From an uncultured Gammaproteobacteria bacterium (GTDB lineage Bacteria > Pseudomonadota > Gammaproteobacteria > Pseudomonadales > Azotimanducaceae): a DNA stretch of 46,619 nt. Positions 2,849 through 25,016 of this stretch are shown piece by piece (position 1 is the first letter of the stretch; every line of letters starts with the position of its first letter). The notes beneath the pieces are model-generated. The model ran no database searches. It worked only from the letters and a program-made list of their open reading frames with translations, and was not told where the DNA came from. A program made the translations under genes and the position numbers. The stretch spans positions 1-46,619 of the forward strand of contig CAJXAC010000012.1 of NCBI GenBank assembly GCA_913050035.1, read 5' to 3'.

Positions 2849-3883
2849 ATGTCACTCAACGCGCTGTTATTGACCGACGGGGTTCTAAGTCATACCCATC
2901 AAAGTCGTGGGCTGCTGGGAACCATATCTTCAAGTGTTGCTCTTTCTATCCAAGATTTTTCAGTACAAATGCATTCAAACTGGATGCGTGGTTTTTTGCG
3001 TAAAGCACTGACTATGACCGCTGATGAGTCCCTAAGTTGGGCTGCGCATTGCTTTAACTGGCCGGCCTGTGAATATCGAAAACCCGATCTTATCGTTTCG
3101 GCGGGGAGCGAAACCATGCTGGTGAATGCGGTACTGGCTCGGCGTTATGAGTGCGATAACATATTTATTGGTGGCCAGAACGGCATTCGCGGCGAGTGGT
3201 TTAATGCCGTTTTAACTTTAGATGCGCCGATTTTGGCGAATGCTATTGCTATGACCTTGCCGCCATCAAGGTTAACGCCTGATATGGTTAATGACGCATA
3301 TGCCACCTATCGGGCGGAGGGTGGAAGACCCAATGGTGTTTGTTGGGCGATGATACTTGGTGGCAATGGTGGCGGTTGTCATTACTCCGATGCAGAGTGG
3401 CAAATGTTAATCGATGGCATGAACCAACTCGCAAAAGTTCACAAAATTAAGTGGTTAGTTGTGACCACGCGACTGACTAGCGGGTGTGTGCAGGAGCGGC
3501 TCAGGCAAGATTTAAAAGCGTCATATGTGGAGTCCATTAGCGCCTATGGTTTGGGATTCGATGATCCGTTGCCCTTGCTTGCGGCGCGTGCTGAGCGGAT
3601 TTACTGTGGTGTGGAACACTTGCTCATATTGTTTGATAGCATCGCCTCGGGGAAGCCGACCCTAGCGCTATTACCAGAATGCGATACGCTTAATCAGCGA
3701 GTACACCATTTACTTAAGCTCCTGCGCCAAGGGCGTTTATTGTCTACGCTTAAAATTAACGAGCTGTCCTTTGGGCGAACTGCGCGGTTGGCCTTGCCGC
3801 TGTCCGAAATGCTGTCGCGTAAGCATGCGCAGCTATTTAGTCAAATTTGTAGCCACTGCCCAAACTTGGCTAACTTTTCCTAG
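2849..3883 (+). CDS. ELM1-family (DUF1022) predicted glycosyltransferase, copy 1
   Basis: A 344-residue member of the family named after plant mitochondrial fission factor ELM1. Bacterial members look like GT-B fold transferases and sit in envelope-sugar loci. Visible signatures are LTDGVLSHTHQSRGL near the N-terminus (family type SDGxPGHxNQ), PDLIVSAGSETM, and AMILGGNGGGCHYSDAEW. I chose ATG 2849, which has AAGGA nine bases upstream and starts just before the conserved LLLTDG strand; the open frame reaches back to a TTG at 2828. It resembles the genes at 6039 and 6971 but is clearly diverged: the usual PGH is SHT here. The substrate is unknown. The region before it (2747-2848) shows no clear signal. 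Confidence 0.82.
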   Translation: MSLNALLLTDGVLSHTHQSRGLLGTISSSVALSIQDFSVQMHSNWMRGFLRKALTMTADESLSWAAHCFNWPACEYRKPDLIVSAGSETMLVNAVLARRYECDNIFIGGQNGIRGEWFNAVLTLDAPILANAIAMTLPPSRLTPDMVNDAYATYRAEGGRPNGVCWAMILGGNGGGCHYSDAEWQMLIDGMNQLAKVHKIKWLVVTTRLTSGCVQERLRQDLKASYVESISAYGLGFDDPLPLLAARAERIYCGVEHLLILFDSIASGKPTLALLPECDTLNQRVHHLLKLLRQGRLLSTLKINELSFGRTARLALPLSEMLSRKHAQLFSQICSHCPNLANFS

Positions 3884-5273: not shown

Positions 5274-5319
5274 ATTACGTTTCAACTGGGGCATAACTGC
5301 CTCAGTTGAATAACGTAAT
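5274..5319. terminator. Long imperfect inverted repeat at the converging ends of metY and the site-2 protease gene
   Basis: The left arm 5274-5293 and right arm 5298-5319 pair over about 20 bases around a TAAC loop, with one G-T pair and a two-base bulge. The right arm covers the last codons and stop of the protease gene. The position suits a two-way terminator, but there is no clear T run on either side, so another role such as RNA stabilisation is possible. Confidence 0.55.
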
Positions 5320-5937
5320 CCAGTCAAGCATGGTCCGTGACAGTTCGGTTAGCCCGCTTAAAAACGGTAAGCCGGCCACGCTCAATACTACCAGTGCGAG
5401 AAAAATACCGGTGCCGAAGCGCGCGTTGGCATGGCGGTAGCGCTGTGCCCAGCGCGCAGGCAACAAATGCGGCAGGATGTAGTGCCCATCCAATGGGCCG
5501 AGCGGAATCAGGTTGAATAGCATCAGCAGTAGATTGATCTGTGCCAGTAGGGTGAAAAATACTAACGGCTCCTGATCTTGCCAGCCATTCTGCCAAAACC
5601 AGACAAATATGTTCCAGGTCACAAGGGCAAGTAATAAATTCATTGCTGGGCCGGCTAAAGCCACCCAAAGATCAGCGCTGGCACGGCGGTAGTTGCGCGG
5701 ATCAGTAGGCACAGGCTTGGCGTAGCCAATGCCTATGAGAGCCACCATGGCCAGGCCAATTGGATCAATGTGGGACAGTGGGTTTAAGGTCAGACGTCCA
5801 GCCCGTTCAGCGGTATCGTCACCAAACCACTTGGCGACCATAGCGTGGCCGAATTCGTGGAAACTCAGGGACAGGACCAACGCTACCAGCAGCAGAAAAA
5901 ATACCGCGAATTGGCCTTGCATGAGCAATGACAGCAT
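5302..5937 (-). CDS. Site-2-protease-type (M50) membrane zinc metallopeptidase
   Basis: A compact 211-residue intramembrane protease of the short, PDZ-free kind. The zinc motif HEFGH lies at residues 27-31 within the first helix, and the third ligand is in NLIPLGPLDGHYI (D150), both at the positions expected for S2P. Four to five hydrophobic segments and the LAGPAMN stretch (94-100) are typical. Its substrate is unknown; no anti-sigma factor is nearby. It converges on metY, shares the inverted repeat at its 3' end, and diverges from the ELM1 gene at 6039. Family assignment is firm, role open. Confidence 0.92.
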   Translation of the reverse strand: MLSLLMQGQFAVFFLLLVALVLSLSFHEFGHAMVAKWFGDDTAERAGRLTLNPLSHIDPIGLAMVALIGIGYAKPVPTDPRNYRRASADLWVALAGPAMNLLLALVTWNIFVWFWQNGWQDQEPLVFFTLLAQINLLLMLFNLIPLGPLDGHYILPHLLPARWAQRYRHANARFGTGIFLALVVLSVAGLPFLSGLTELSRTMLDWITLFN

Positions 5938-6038
5938 TTTTCCGTACCTCGTTTGTCCTGTGCATAGGCATTGGCTAGCCGTTAACGGCGCACTATCATG
6001 GCAGCCCTAGGACGCGCTGCGAGCGTTGAGGGCGAACA

Positions 6039-6974
6039 ATCAAACATACATTAAAAGTTTGGCGATTTCTTGATGGCAAGCCAGGGCACGAAAAGCAAAC
6101 TCAGGGCCTGGTACAAGGACTGAGAGAACTGGCCGATATCAGTGTGCGTGAAGTGCAGTGGCCTGCCGATGCCAAGTCATTAAATTCTGACTGGCAGTTG
6201 CGTGCGGCGGCACCCGATTTGATCATTGGTGCCGGACATCATCTGCACAAACCAATGTTGCGTACCCGCTGGCATCTGGGCGGGCGTTGTGTGGTATTGA
6301 TGCGACCTTCGCTGCCGACGTTCTTATTCGATTTGGCCTTGGTGCCAGAGCATGATCGTGTATGGGTGTCGCACAATGTCGAGCCCACGCTGGGTATGCT
6401 GTCGCCCTCTCAAGTCAGCGAGTCCGATCCGCAGCGCGGGGTTGTGTTGCTGGGTGGGCTGAGTAAACACTTTCACTGGTCGAATGACGACGTCGCTCGG
6501 CAGGTGCATAAGATTGTCCTCGAGGCACCACGTCAGCAATGGCAGATCATTGATTCACGGCGTACACCGAATGAACTACGCGAACATTTGCAGTTGCCCG
6601 ATTATGCTAAGTACGTGCATTGGCGTGATACCCAACCCTCTTGGTTAACCCATCAGCTCAGCCGCAGCAGTGCAACGTGGGTGACCCCTGATAGTGCATC
6701 CATGGTTTATGAGGCGCTGTCGTTTTCAGGCCAAGTTGGAGTGATCGAGCTTGGCGCAAAGCGTCGCAATAATAAGTTGGCAAACGGCATCCGGCGTTTG
6801 CATGCCTTGGGCTATGTCGGTCTGTCCGCTAAGGGCCCATTGTCCCAACAAAACTTAAATGCTGTTGCACTGGCTGAGCACCGGCGTTGTGCCAAGCTCA
6901 TCATGCAGCGCTGGTTTTCCGCGCTGCTCAAGCAAGATGAGCGGCTGTCCAATCACGGCGGAGACGCAAAGTGA
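6039..6974 (+). CDS. ELM1-family (DUF1022) predicted glycosyltransferase, copy 2, with probable ATC start
   Basis: The frame is open from a TGA at 6027 and encodes the family N-terminal motif VWRFLDGKPGHEKQTQGL at 6057-6110, which a start at GTG 6144 would remove. Between the TGA and this motif there is no ATG, GTG or TTG. ATC at 6039 is preceded by GAGGG (6028-6032) with six bases between, an excellent Shine-Dalgarno, and would give 311 residues. Other motifs: PDLIIGAGHH, VVLLGGLSKHFHW and the late SASMVYEALSF block. Its stop overlaps the next gene's start in GTGA, so the two are probably translationally coupled. A single-base change or error from ATG is an alternative. Confidence 0.8.
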   Translation: MKHTLKVWRFLDGKPGHEKQTQGLVQGLRELADISVREVQWPADAKSLNSDWQLRAAAPDLIIGAGHHLHKPMLRTRWHLGGRCVVLMRPSLPTFLFDLALVPEHDRVWVSHNVEPTLGMLSPSQVSESDPQRGVVLLGGLSKHFHWSNDDVARQVHKIVLEAPRQQWQIIDSRRTPNELREHLQLPDYAKYVHWRDTQPSWLTHQLSRSSATWVTPDSASMVYEALSFSGQVGVIELGAKRRNNKLANGIRRLHALGYVGLSAKGPLSQQNLNAVALAEHRRCAKLIMQRWFSALLKQDERLSNHGGDAK

Positions 6975-8038
6975 CAGTGCCGTTACGGGTCTGGTTGCTC
7001 AGTGACGGCGTGCCGGGGCATGTCAATCAGGCACGCGGGTTGGTGAGGCGCATTGCCGCTGTGCAAGAGGTGGATTGCCAAGAATTCATTGTGCCGATGC
7101 GTTTGCCGTTCCTCAGACCGCTATTGCGATCAGCGCAAAATAATCGCCGCAGTTGGGCGCACCAACTTGCGCGCTGGATTTATAAATCCTGGCCGCACGT
7201 GGATGAGGATCCTGAGCTGATTATTTCTGCCGGTGGCAAGACATCCTTTATTAATGCGCTGCTGGCTCAGCAACTGGGCAGTACTAACTTTTTTATGGGC
7301 TCGCTACGCGGCCTGGACGCGGAATTATTCAGCGCTGTATTTACCCTGCAGCCGTTAGAAAACCCTAGTGGCAGTGCGCTGAAAAACAATATTGTAATGC
7401 CGATTTTACCCTCAAATAACGATCCCGATGCGGGTCGAGAAGAAGCCCAAAATTTACGTCGTAGATATTCTGGCTATGTCTTTGGAGCGGTATTGCTTGG
7501 TGGTGATGGTTCGGGTTATCGCTATAAAGATCGGGACTGGGAGCAACTAGCCACGGCCATGAATCTCCTAAGTCAGGAGCAAAAGGTCATTTGGTTGTTA
7601 ACAACATCACGTCGTACTGGTAAGCGCGCGGAAGCGGTCTTGCAAGGTTTGCTCAATCGGAAAACTCTGGCTGATGTTGTGTGGTTTGCCGAGCATCCCC
7701 GCAATCGCAACGCGATGTTTTTGCAAGCTGCAGATTTTGTACTATGTGGTGAAGACAGTATGTCTATGGTGCACGAGGCGCTGGCAGCAGATGCAAAGGT
7801 GGTAACCCTGAGTCCGAAATTTGCCAAACCGCCAGCGCGGTATGCGGATAAAATTAAGCGTCTCTATGAAGCCGGTTATTTGCAGTGTTGTTCGATCTCA
7901 GCACTTGGAGCACTGCAGGTTTCGGCCGTGTGTAATACCCGCGCTCATCAGCCGCACGATTGGCGGGGTGTTATCGAGCGGTCGCTGAAGCCGCTACTGG
8001 AGGGTATCCGGGAGGCCGATAACTTAGATGAGTCGTAG
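6971..8038 (+). CDS. ELM1-family (DUF1022) predicted glycosyltransferase, copy 3
   Basis: A 355-residue protein beginning with GTG inside the stop of the preceding gene (GTGA overlap). It has the full set of family signatures: VWLLSDGVPGHVNQARGL near the N-terminus, PELIISAGGKTSF, AVLLGGDGSGYRY and the C-terminal EDSMSMVHEALA, which resembles the donor-nucleotide loop of GT-B enzymes. It is the most canonical of the three copies. Overlap with copy 2 suggests equimolar synthesis and perhaps a shared pathway. The acceptor is likely an envelope glycan given the neighbouring GT4 genes (inference). It converges on the GT4 gene at 8067. Confidence 0.87.
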   Translation: MTVPLRVWLLSDGVPGHVNQARGLVRRIAAVQEVDCQEFIVPMRLPFLRPLLRSAQNNRRSWAHQLARWIYKSWPHVDEDPELIISAGGKTSFINALLAQQLGSTNFFMGSLRGLDAELFSAVFTLQPLENPSGSALKNNIVMPILPSNNDPDAGREEAQNLRRRYSGYVFGAVLLGGDGSGYRYKDRDWEQLATAMNLLSQEQKVIWLLTTSRRTGKRAEAVLQGLLNRKTLADVVWFAEHPRNRNAMFLQAADFVLCGEDSMSMVHEALAADAKVVTLSPKFAKPPARYADKIKRLYEAGYLQCCSISALGALQVSAVCNTRAHQPHDWRGVIERSLKPLLEGIREADNLDES

Positions 8039-8066: not shown

Positions 8067-9173
8067 TCAGACTTTGGCTGCGAGCAAATCCTCATAGACT
8101 TTGACAGTTTGTTGCTGCATGCGTTCGAGCACAAAAGTATTGGTTAATGGTTGCGCGGAGTCGTCAGCAAGTAGGGATTGTGTTTTGGCTGCAAGTGCAG
8201 CCTCATCGGCGCTAGGTACTAAGCCCTGTGGAAATATTTCGCCAACGCTTTCGGCTGCGCCGCCATAAGCCCATGCCACTACGCGCTTGCCCAAGCTAAG
8301 AGCCTCGATCATTGTGCGTCCAAAAGGTTCGGGCTGGGTCGAAAGATTGTAAATAATACTGCACTGGCTCATTACTTCTCGAATGTCCTGACGGGCTCCT
8401 AAAAATGTTACTCGGGTTTCGATGCCCAGTTGGTTAGTGAGTTCATGCAGTTGGTGAAGAAAGCGCTGCTGTTTCTTTTCTGCGCCGCCAATTACCAGGC
8501 CGTGTATGTCCGGGTCTTCTTTAAGGTTGGCAATTAAGCGCAAGAAAGTCTCGTGCCCCTTCCAACGACTAACGCGACCAGGCAGCGCCAAGAGATTGCG
8601 GCCAATCAGTTGCGGATGCTGCTGTTGCCAGTTAGTTAGCCATTCACTCGTTGGCTGATAATCTCTGGGGAATGATAATGGATCGACTCCGCGATGAATG
8701 AGTTGAATGCGCTCTGCCGGTACGTTCGGATAATTTTGCAAAATGTAGTCGCGTACATTTTCCGAAATGGCGATGACTATTTCGCCCTTGGTCATCACAG
8801 CACTGTATTTATTTACCGAATAGCGACCGTGCACTGTGCTCACCAGTCGCGGTCGCGCATGTTGGGGCATACCGCGCCAAGCTAAATAGATCAGCCATGC
8901 AGGGAGTCTCGAGCGCACATGCACTAGGTCGTAGTTTTGCAGCAACTCGCGCAAAGGCCTTACCAGTTTTAAACTAACGAGGGATTTTCGGTGCACGGGA
9001 AGTGTTATGTGGTCACTGCCTTCTGCGATCAGTTGTGTAACCATAGGACCACCATTAGACAGCACGGTAGATTGATAGCCCGCCGCAACCAGTGCACGGC
9101 CGATTTCTAGTGTGCCGCGCTCGACGCCGCCCATATTGAGCGCCGGCAGTACCTGCAATATTGATGGTTTCAA
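8067..9173 (-). CDS. GT4 family glycosyltransferase
   Basis: A 368-residue retaining GT-B enzyme. The N-terminal acceptor domain starts with LQVLPALNMGGVERGTLEIG, the usual glycine-rich opening of GT4 proteins. The C-terminal donor domain has LPGRVSRWKGHETF and the E-x7-E signature in PEPFGRTMIEALSLG. It has no membrane segment, so it acts in the cytoplasm or at the membrane face, adding a hexose or similar sugar to a core glycan (inference). It is divergent from the other GT4 gene, the two start codons being 50 bases apart, which suggests a shared control region at 9174-9223. Confidence 0.9.
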   Translation of the reverse strand: MKPSILQVLPALNMGGVERGTLEIGRALVAAGYQSTVLSNGGPMVTQLIAEGSDHITLPVHRKSLVSLKLVRPLRELLQNYDLVHVRSRLPAWLIYLAWRGMPQHARPRLVSTVHGRYSVNKYSAVMTKGEIVIAISENVRDYILQNYPNVPAERIQLIHRGVDPLSFPRDYQPTSEWLTNWQQQHPQLIGRNLLALPGRVSRWKGHETFLRLIANLKEDPDIHGLVIGGAEKKQQRFLHQLHELTNQLGIETRVTFLGARQDIREVMSQCSIIYNLSTQPEPFGRTMIEALSLGKRVVAWAYGGAAESVGEIFPQGLVPSADEAALAAKTQSLLADDSAQPLTNTFVLERMQQQTVKVYEDLLAAKV

Positions 9174-9223
9174 CGATATGTCCTCATGGGCATCAAGAGT
9201 ACATGGATTGAGGAGTGGCGGAC

Positions 9224-10255
9224 ATGCGCATAGCGCAAATTATGGCTGGGCAAGAGGCCGGTGGGGCGGAGCTATTTTATGCGCGCCTCACGTCTGCACT
9301 GGCTGCTGACACAGACTTAAAACAAATTGCTATTTTGCGCCCACATGCACGTTGGCTTGCAATGCTCGAGGTGGCGGGAGTGCCGACTAAAACCCATAGA
9401 TTTGGTGGTCGCTTGGATGTGCAAACCAAGCGCCGAATGCGTGCTCAGTTGCAGGCATTTGAGGCAGATGTGGCACTTAATTGGATGAGTCGGGCCGCGC
9501 GTTTTTGCCCGAGTGGCGCATGGACTAATGCTGCACGGCTTGGCGGTTACTATTCGCTCAAGTACTACCAACAATGTCAGGCCTTTGTCGGCAATACTCA
9601 AGGCATTTGTGACTACCTGCGTAAACAAGGGGTGCCCGGTGAGCGCGTTCATTACATCCCAAACTTTATCGATGAACGGCCGTTAACTGCAGATGACGCA
9701 ACCGAATTCCCGGCAACAAAACGAGAGGACGCGCCGGTATTGTTGGCGGCCGGTCGTCTGCACCGAAACAAGGGTTTTGATGTATTGATCGAGGCATTAT
9801 GCGCAGTTCCCTCAGCAACATTGTGGCTGGCTGGAGACGGGCCGGAACGAGTTAATTTGGCTCATTTAGCGGAACGCCTAGGTGTTGGTGATCGGATAGA
9901 ATTTTTAGGTTGGCAGGACGATTTACGGCCGTATTTTCAACGCGCTGATGTTTTCGTTTGCTCCTCGCGTATCGAACCACTCGGCAATATTGTGTTAGAG
10001 GCTTGGCGGCATGGGTGTCCGCTGGTTGCTGCGCGTGCCGCAGGGCCCGTGGAACTGATTAACGATGGTATTAACGGTTCACTCTGCGATCTAGAAGATG
10101 CGCCGGCTATGGCCCAAGCGATAACCCATTTGCTCGACAGTGCAGGACAGCGGCAGGACTATGCGGCGGCGGGTCAAGCAGCTTATGCGGCGGGTTTTAG
10201 CCGCGCCCAAGTGATTGCGCGTTATCAGCAATTTTTTGATGAGATTAAGGCCTAA
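9224..10255 (+). CDS. GT4 family glycosyltransferase
   Basis: A 343-residue GT-B enzyme starting at ATG 9224, which has GAGGAG eight bases upstream; an in-frame GTG at 9215 lies within that Shine-Dalgarno and is less likely. It opens with MRIAQIMAGQEAGGAELF, has LLAAGRLHRNKGFD at the start of the donor domain, and the E-x7-E signature in EPLGNIVLEAWRHG. It resembles core-oligosaccharide hexosyl- and heptosyltransferases of the GT4 class; the sugar is not readable. Its last 11 bases overlap the end of the converging CgeB-like gene. Confidence 0.9.
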   Translation: MRIAQIMAGQEAGGAELFYARLTSALAADTDLKQIAILRPHARWLAMLEVAGVPTKTHRFGGRLDVQTKRRMRAQLQAFEADVALNWMSRAARFCPSGAWTNAARLGGYYSLKYYQQCQAFVGNTQGICDYLRKQGVPGERVHYIPNFIDERPLTADDATEFPATKREDAPVLLAAGRLHRNKGFDVLIEALCAVPSATLWLAGDGPERVNLAHLAERLGVGDRIEFLGWQDDLRPYFQRADVFVCSSRIEPLGNIVLEAWRHGCPLVAARAAGPVELINDGINGSLCDLEDAPAMAQAITHLLDSAGQRQDYAAAGQAAYAAGFSRAQVIARYQQFFDEIKA

Positions 10256-24780: not shown

Positions 24781-25016
24781 AGTTCACTCTCCCTTTGGGT
24801 AAAACTGTAACGAGTTTCTGCATTAGATCACAGGATTAGGGCACTTCTGCAAGGTTTGCTAGGTTATGTCTAGCATAGATGAGAATTAGAACGTCGGTCA
24901 GGCGGGGCCGAAAGGAACAAAATTGATTGCTATCAGGCAATACCAGATCTCGAAATCGACGCAGCTTAGGTGTTTGCGGTGTTAGAAGAAGATAGCCGCG
25001 GCTGATAGGGCGGCAT
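24781..25016. other. Non-coding spacer inside the minus-strand catabolic run
   Basis: Between the isomerase start and the CoA-transferase stop I see no convincing reading frame; a 90-codon frame here is mostly out-of-frame reading of the transferase end. It contains a Shine-Dalgarno for the isomerase and no strong promoter or hairpin. It breaks an otherwise tightly packed operon. Confidence 0.5.

Follow-up and report, generated by a model that had tools for sequence, protein, structure and literature searches.

ELM1a, an ELM1-family gene in a 46,619-nucleotide stretch of DNA from an uncultured gammaproteobacterium (the window, meaning the whole stretch that was analysed), very probably starts at the ATC codon at position 6039, judging from comparison with related genomes. 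The overall explanation that we favour, and hold to be likely, is that this start codon is kept by selection and would give a low, IF3-sensitive level of initiation. The start had been proposed in a sequence-only reading of the window, which recommended comparing the start base in orthologues from related genomes; with ATC in all seven orthologues and ATT or ATG at the aligned codon in congeners, the proposal is now very probable. The features of the locus are listed in Table 1.

Table 1. Features of the ELM1a locus, in window coordinates.
Feature	Position	Strand	Basis or remark
M50-family metalloprotease gene, divergent, syntenic marker	5302..5937	-	adjoins ELM1a in the ATC, ATT and ATG groups
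Probable sigma-70 promoter, TTGGCT-N17-TATCAT	5971..5999	+	sole promoter-like site within 5900-6200; 0.2 expected in shuffles
In-frame TGA closing the ELM1a frame 5' of the start	6027..6029	+	sequence; kept in 5/7 orthologues
Shine-Dalgarno (SD) sequence GAGGG	6028..6032	+	-6.1 kcal/mol, average strength for window genes
ATC, very probable start codon of ELM1a	6039..6041	+	identical in 7/7 genomes; the aligned codon is ATT in three congeners, ATG in six
Frozen block, 35 bases, starting exactly at ATC	6039..6073	+	identical in 7/7 genomes; rare A/T-rich codons
ELM1a coding sequence, 311 aa, GT-B-like fold	6039..6974	+	PF06258; AlphaFold; Foldseek; dN/dS
GTG, first standard in-frame codon, rejected as start	6144..6146	+	codon 36; no SD seen
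ELM1b, second ELM1-family gene, GTG start	6971..8038	+	not found at the locus in ATT/ATG relatives

The start region and the ELM1a protein

Following the TGA at 6027-6029, the triplets of the ELM1a frame read GGG CGA ACA ATC AAA CAT ACA TTA AAA GTT TGG CGA TTT CTT GAT GGC, with ATC at 6039 and GTT at 6057, and the first in-frame ATG, GTG or TTG is the GTG at 6144, which is codon 36. Among codons -3 to +13 around the start, ATC is the sole one that differs from ATG by a single base. The earlier statement that no standard start lies between the TGA and the family motif was exact on re-reading, and the GAGGG that it placed six bases upstream of the ATC is indeed found at that spacing. A GAGG, AAGG or GGAG core was present at roughly the same spot upstream of the ATC in all seven orthologues, and the 16S end of the congener G011 carries CCTCC, an ordinary anti-SD. 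The two promoter hexamers are largely kept across the seven orthologues, and the transcript would start at about 6003-6009, with a leader of some 30 bases.

Initiation further upstream, with readthrough of TGA 6027 or a frameshift from the ATG at 5998 leading into the frame, is very unlikely. This ATG opens an 18-codon frame, which overlaps the ATC in some orthologues, but it also overlaps the -10 hexamer TATCAT, its frame stops just before the ATC in two orthologues (L004 and L006), no such ATG exists in a third (L007), and the residues upstream of the ATC are unconserved. The reading was rejected on the overlap with the -10 box and the lack of conservation of the frame.

Read from the ATC, ELM1a carries the DGKPGH-type N-terminal motif and matches Mito_fiss_Elm1 (PF06258) over the entire profile (1-304/304, E = 9.6e-55, 186 bits against a cut-off of 27), which bears out its earlier assignment to the ELM1 family. 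Across 72 homologues 20 residues are invariant, D12, G16, H17, Q20 and L24 among them, and W8 and G13 are nearly so. The AlphaFold model (mean pLDDT 94) places strand 1 at residues 5-11, helix 1 at 15-31 and strand 2 at 34-40, and in Foldseek it resembled UDP-GlcNAc 2-epimerases and GT-B glycosyltransferases, with modest TM-scores of about 0.4-0.57; on this model ELM1a is a putative sugar-transfer-like, glycosyltransferase-like envelope enzyme. No solved relative was found by sequence, and a literature search on ELM1 in LPS synthesis turned up no paper that mentions the bacterial ELM1 family by name.

Translation from GTG 6144 (or GTG 6153), the start that an automatic gene caller would have, is highly improbable. 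Although the GTG is kept as a codon in 7/7 orthologues, a start there would drop all of strand 1 and helix 1, some of strand 2 and five of the 20 invariant residues. The residues encoded by codons 1-35 are conserved between phyla, and positions 6130-6143 ahead of the GTG hold no SD. The expectation from the sequence that this start would delete the family motif was correct, the lost residues being D12, G16, H17, Q20 and L24, and GTG 6144 was rejected on the loss of invariant residues and N-terminal fold elements.

Conservation of the start among orthologues and congeners

The ATC set comprised the window and six species-level genomes found by a search of related genomes (L002-L007, corresponding to G008, G009, G011, G012, G003 and G001; protein identity 75-93%), all of them metagenome-assembled and from different samples. 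ATC stood at the aligned start position in every one of the seven. In five genomes, the window included, there is no standard start upstream and a stop closes the frame three codons before the ATC; in the remaining two (L005 and L007) a chance ATG or TTG stands in frame 10-13 codons further up, where the encoded residues are unconserved. Among the orthologues dN/dS was 0.04-0.11, so the protein works; these ratios indicate that ELM1a is under purifying selection. Silent sites were near saturation, with dS of 2.2-3.3 for four of the orthologues, and the shared ATC therefore does not stem from common ancestry of the reads. A sequencing or assembly error hiding a true ATG, or a pseudogene, has a next to negligible probability: all seven ATC genomes are metagenome assemblies, but they are independent and concordant at the ATC, their silent sites have diverged to saturation and the frame is open in all of them. 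The concordance and the low dN/dS led to rejection of this reading. For the other window genes, each compared in five to seven genomes, an alignable ATG, GTG or TTG start was present in every case inspected in detail.

Elsewhere in the genus, the codon aligned to the ATC is ATT in three congeners (G002, G005 and G039; loci L089, L091 and L092) and ATG in six (L090, L093-L096 and L098), and in the ATC, ATT and ATG groups alike ELM1 adjoins the same divergent M50 protease gene and a Cys/Met-metabolism gene. Since ATT and ATG occupy the aligned codon of the same syntenic locus in other subclades, the alignment places ATC at the ancestral start position. Two of the three ATT-group genes have no ATG, GTG or TTG ahead of the family motif, and the third (L089) has GTG/TTG upstream with an unconserved extension; a conserved leader, containing a TATATT box and an SD-like run rich in GG, lies ahead of the ATT start. 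In the protein tree the ATC group and the ATT group each formed one clade (support 100/100), and the switch away from ATG may have taken place once or twice.

Among 134 ELM1 loci, some genomes being represented twice, a standard start was missing only in the ATC and ATT groups and in one doubtful genome. The latter, a Pseudomonadales MAG (L016:2980-3040, the same genome as L186), has an ELM1 gene without a standard start before the motif and an ATG just upstream but out of frame, which points to an indel or to another non-standard start; it was left out of the near-cognate count because it is a single genome and the out-of-frame ATG may reflect an indel.

The frozen block and the neighbouring ELM1b

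The longest exact word common to all seven genomes in the region is ATCAAACATACATTAAAAGTTTGGCGATTTCTTGA (6039-6073). The first 11 codons of ELM1a showed zero base changes (5-7 genomes), whereas the longest such run in other genes was at most five (34 window genes compared), and among protein-invariant codons capable of silent change, 10/10 were unchanged in codons 1-11 versus 14/153 elsewhere (Fisher p = 7e-10). The codons ACA, TTA, CGA and CTT of the block are rare in the remainder of ELM1a. Arms of the form TCAAAC...GTTTGG inside the block fold in most of the orthologues' predictions, a hairpin that is beyond a covariation test because the sequence is invariant. A search of the genome that allowed up to three mismatches found no further copy of the block, which is also absent elsewhere among 207 family genomes, gave no match in Rfam and is not present in the ATT group.

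Only one other word of at least 20 bases is common to all seven genomes in the region, the 31-base GTACATGGATTGAGGAGTGGCGGACATGCGC (9199-9229), and frozen start regions are therefore not unique to the ATC gene. This word lies between two divergent glycosyltransferase genes and overlaps their start region (8067-9173 on the minus strand and 9215/9224-10255 on the plus strand), and conservation runs past it with little change to about 9247. Separately, the 20-base AGTTTCTGCATTAGATCACA (24813-24832) is identical in the window, G008, G009, G011 and G001; it lies just upstream of a minus-strand enoyl-CoA hydratase-like gene and is a possible promoter or operator.

Of all parts of the finding the frozen block is explained least, and two readings fit its sequence: the weak start may place unusually strict demands on its initiation region, or the block is a putative binding site. 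It is rather unlikely that the ATC, while being the start, is incidental and that selection acts on a 35-base operator or RNA-binding site which happens to contain it. The exceptional length of the shared word, its rare codons and the folding arms speak for such a site, and the word at 9199-9229 demonstrates that frozen blocks arise without a rare start. Against it, the ATT group retains a near-cognate start without the block, the block begins precisely at the A of the ATC, which a constraint imposed by initiation would predict, and neither the Rfam search nor the search for a second genomic copy gave a match. Possible, if on the doubtful side, is a dedicated translational switch formed by the ATC and the following 32 invariant bases, folded or bound by a protein or sRNA and with a fidelity-gated start, which would make production of an envelope sugar enzyme depend on the condition of the translation apparatus.

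The stop codon of ELM1a (TGA, 6972-6974) overlaps the GTG start of ELM1b in a GTGA junction. In the seven ATC genomes the two genes are joined by GTGA (three genomes), TAATG (two), ATGGTAA (one) or a short gap (one), so that they overlap or abut in six of them. ELM1b downstream of ELM1a was found only in the ATC clade; at the examined locus of the ATT- and ATG-start congeners it was not found beside ELM1a. The suggestion that weak initiation at the ATC governs how much of both ELM1 proteins is made is weakly supported: the overlap in the window is real, but GTGA occurs in just three of seven genomes and the ATT relatives lack a detectable ELM1b at this place. Coupling may operate within the ATC clade, but it cannot explain the rare start in general, as ELM1b was not found beside the ATT-start ELM1. 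The window holds three ELM1-family paralogues within 5.2 kb (2849-3883, 6039-6974 and 6971-8038), adjoined by several glycosyltransferase genes.

A proposed weak, IF3-sensitive start and its known counterparts

In the favoured explanation, ELM1a would be translated from ATC 6039 by the ordinary initiator tRNA, guided by GAGGG, and we infer that the codon is read as fMet. AUC would mispair with the initiator anticodon at its third base, where IF3 discriminates, and ELM1a would for this reason be produced in a small amount, which tracks the IF3:ribosome balance and falls as IF3 rises, as for infC and pcnB. Selection would hold a third-base-mispaired start, ATC or ATT by subclade, where relatives have ATG, and in the ATC subclade it would also freeze the next 32 bases, either because a weak start needs an A/U-rich initiation region with little structure or because something binds there. 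By analogy, weak and IF3-sensitive initiation at this ATC is plausible, and the rare start has persisted while the species diverged, probably because it keeps the amount of protein low and adjustable. Counting against this explanation are the SD of merely average strength, where the non-canonical starts of S. aureus have extended SDs (PMC13009471), the metagenome-assembled nature of every ATC-clade genome, the upstream in-frame ATG/TTG codons of L005 and L007 and GTG/TTG of L089, and the 35-base freeze, which exceeds the needs of a weak start and is missing in the ATT group.

In this genus infC has an ATT start preceded by GGAG at a distance of six bases (L132 in the window's own genome) or, in two congeners (G033, L150; G014, L155), an ATC start; these cells therefore normally make use of AUU/AUC initiation, and infC serves as an internal positive control within the same genomes. 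Two codons ahead of the ATT, part of the genus has an infC ATG that overlaps the SD and would lead gene callers astray; many members have ACG in its place.

To our knowledge, few AUC or AUU starts are documented outside infC. Gene callers systematically miss such near-cognate starts, which conservation alone can reveal, and ELM1 offers a clean comparative case, with one gene at one locus having three start codons in three subclades of one genus. The frozen block provides a concrete sequence for asking what a weak start needs nearby, or what binds there, and if IF3 control holds true, an envelope glycosyltransferase-like enzyme would be under translation-fidelity control.

Proofreading of the third base of the start codon by IF3 has been described for infC and pcnB (PMC9410913) and for sigR (PMC5472188), and the base-pair preference of IF3 has been reported (PMC10158994). 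The sequence-only reading had regarded ATC/ATT starts as nearly confined to infC and pcnB; both are known examples (cited in PMC9410913), and others have been published, namely sigR (GTC), pncA (AUU), cvfC1 (AUU) and ccpN (AUA).

As cited in PMC9410913, E. coli infC, which encodes IF3, starts at AUU and is autoregulated; it shares with ELM1a an AUU/AUC start that mispairs at the third base and has a GGAG/GAGG-type SD six bases ahead of it, but ELM1a is not a translation factor and would form no feedback loop on IF3 itself. E. coli pcnB, with an AUU start (also cited in PMC9410913), is a non-translation gene whose inefficient start codon holds its level low, as proposed for ELM1a; it differs in gene and function, and ELM1a has ATC, with ATT in the orthologues of another subclade. 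Streptomyces sigR starts at GTC and is repressed by IF3 (PMC5472188), and as in ELM1a the non-canonical start codon is conserved and opens the first of two overlapping genes, which in the sigR pair are coupled; there, however, the codon is GTC, IF3 repression is proved and the partner is an anti-sigma factor, whereas ELM1a has ATC and a paralogue as partner. The AUU start of Borrelia burgdorferi pncA (bbe22) was verified by genetics and structure (PMC13398362), while the ELM1a start is supported by comparison; in both cases the protein in the databases is truncated, since gene callers accept only ATG, GTG or TTG, and the missing N-terminus belongs to the fold. In S. aureus, cvfC1 (AUU) and ccpN (AUA) likewise have conserved near-cognate starts, cvfC1 being first in its operon, and these starts too are documented as having escaped annotation, but with extended SDs in place of the average one of ELM1a, and the accessible part of that report (PMC13009471) mentions no 35-base frozen coding block. 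IF3-controlled near-cognate starts are thus already known from infC, pcnB, sigR and a few others; new are this gene, the ATC/ATT/ATG series at one locus and the unusually strong comparative evidence that the aligned sequences provide.
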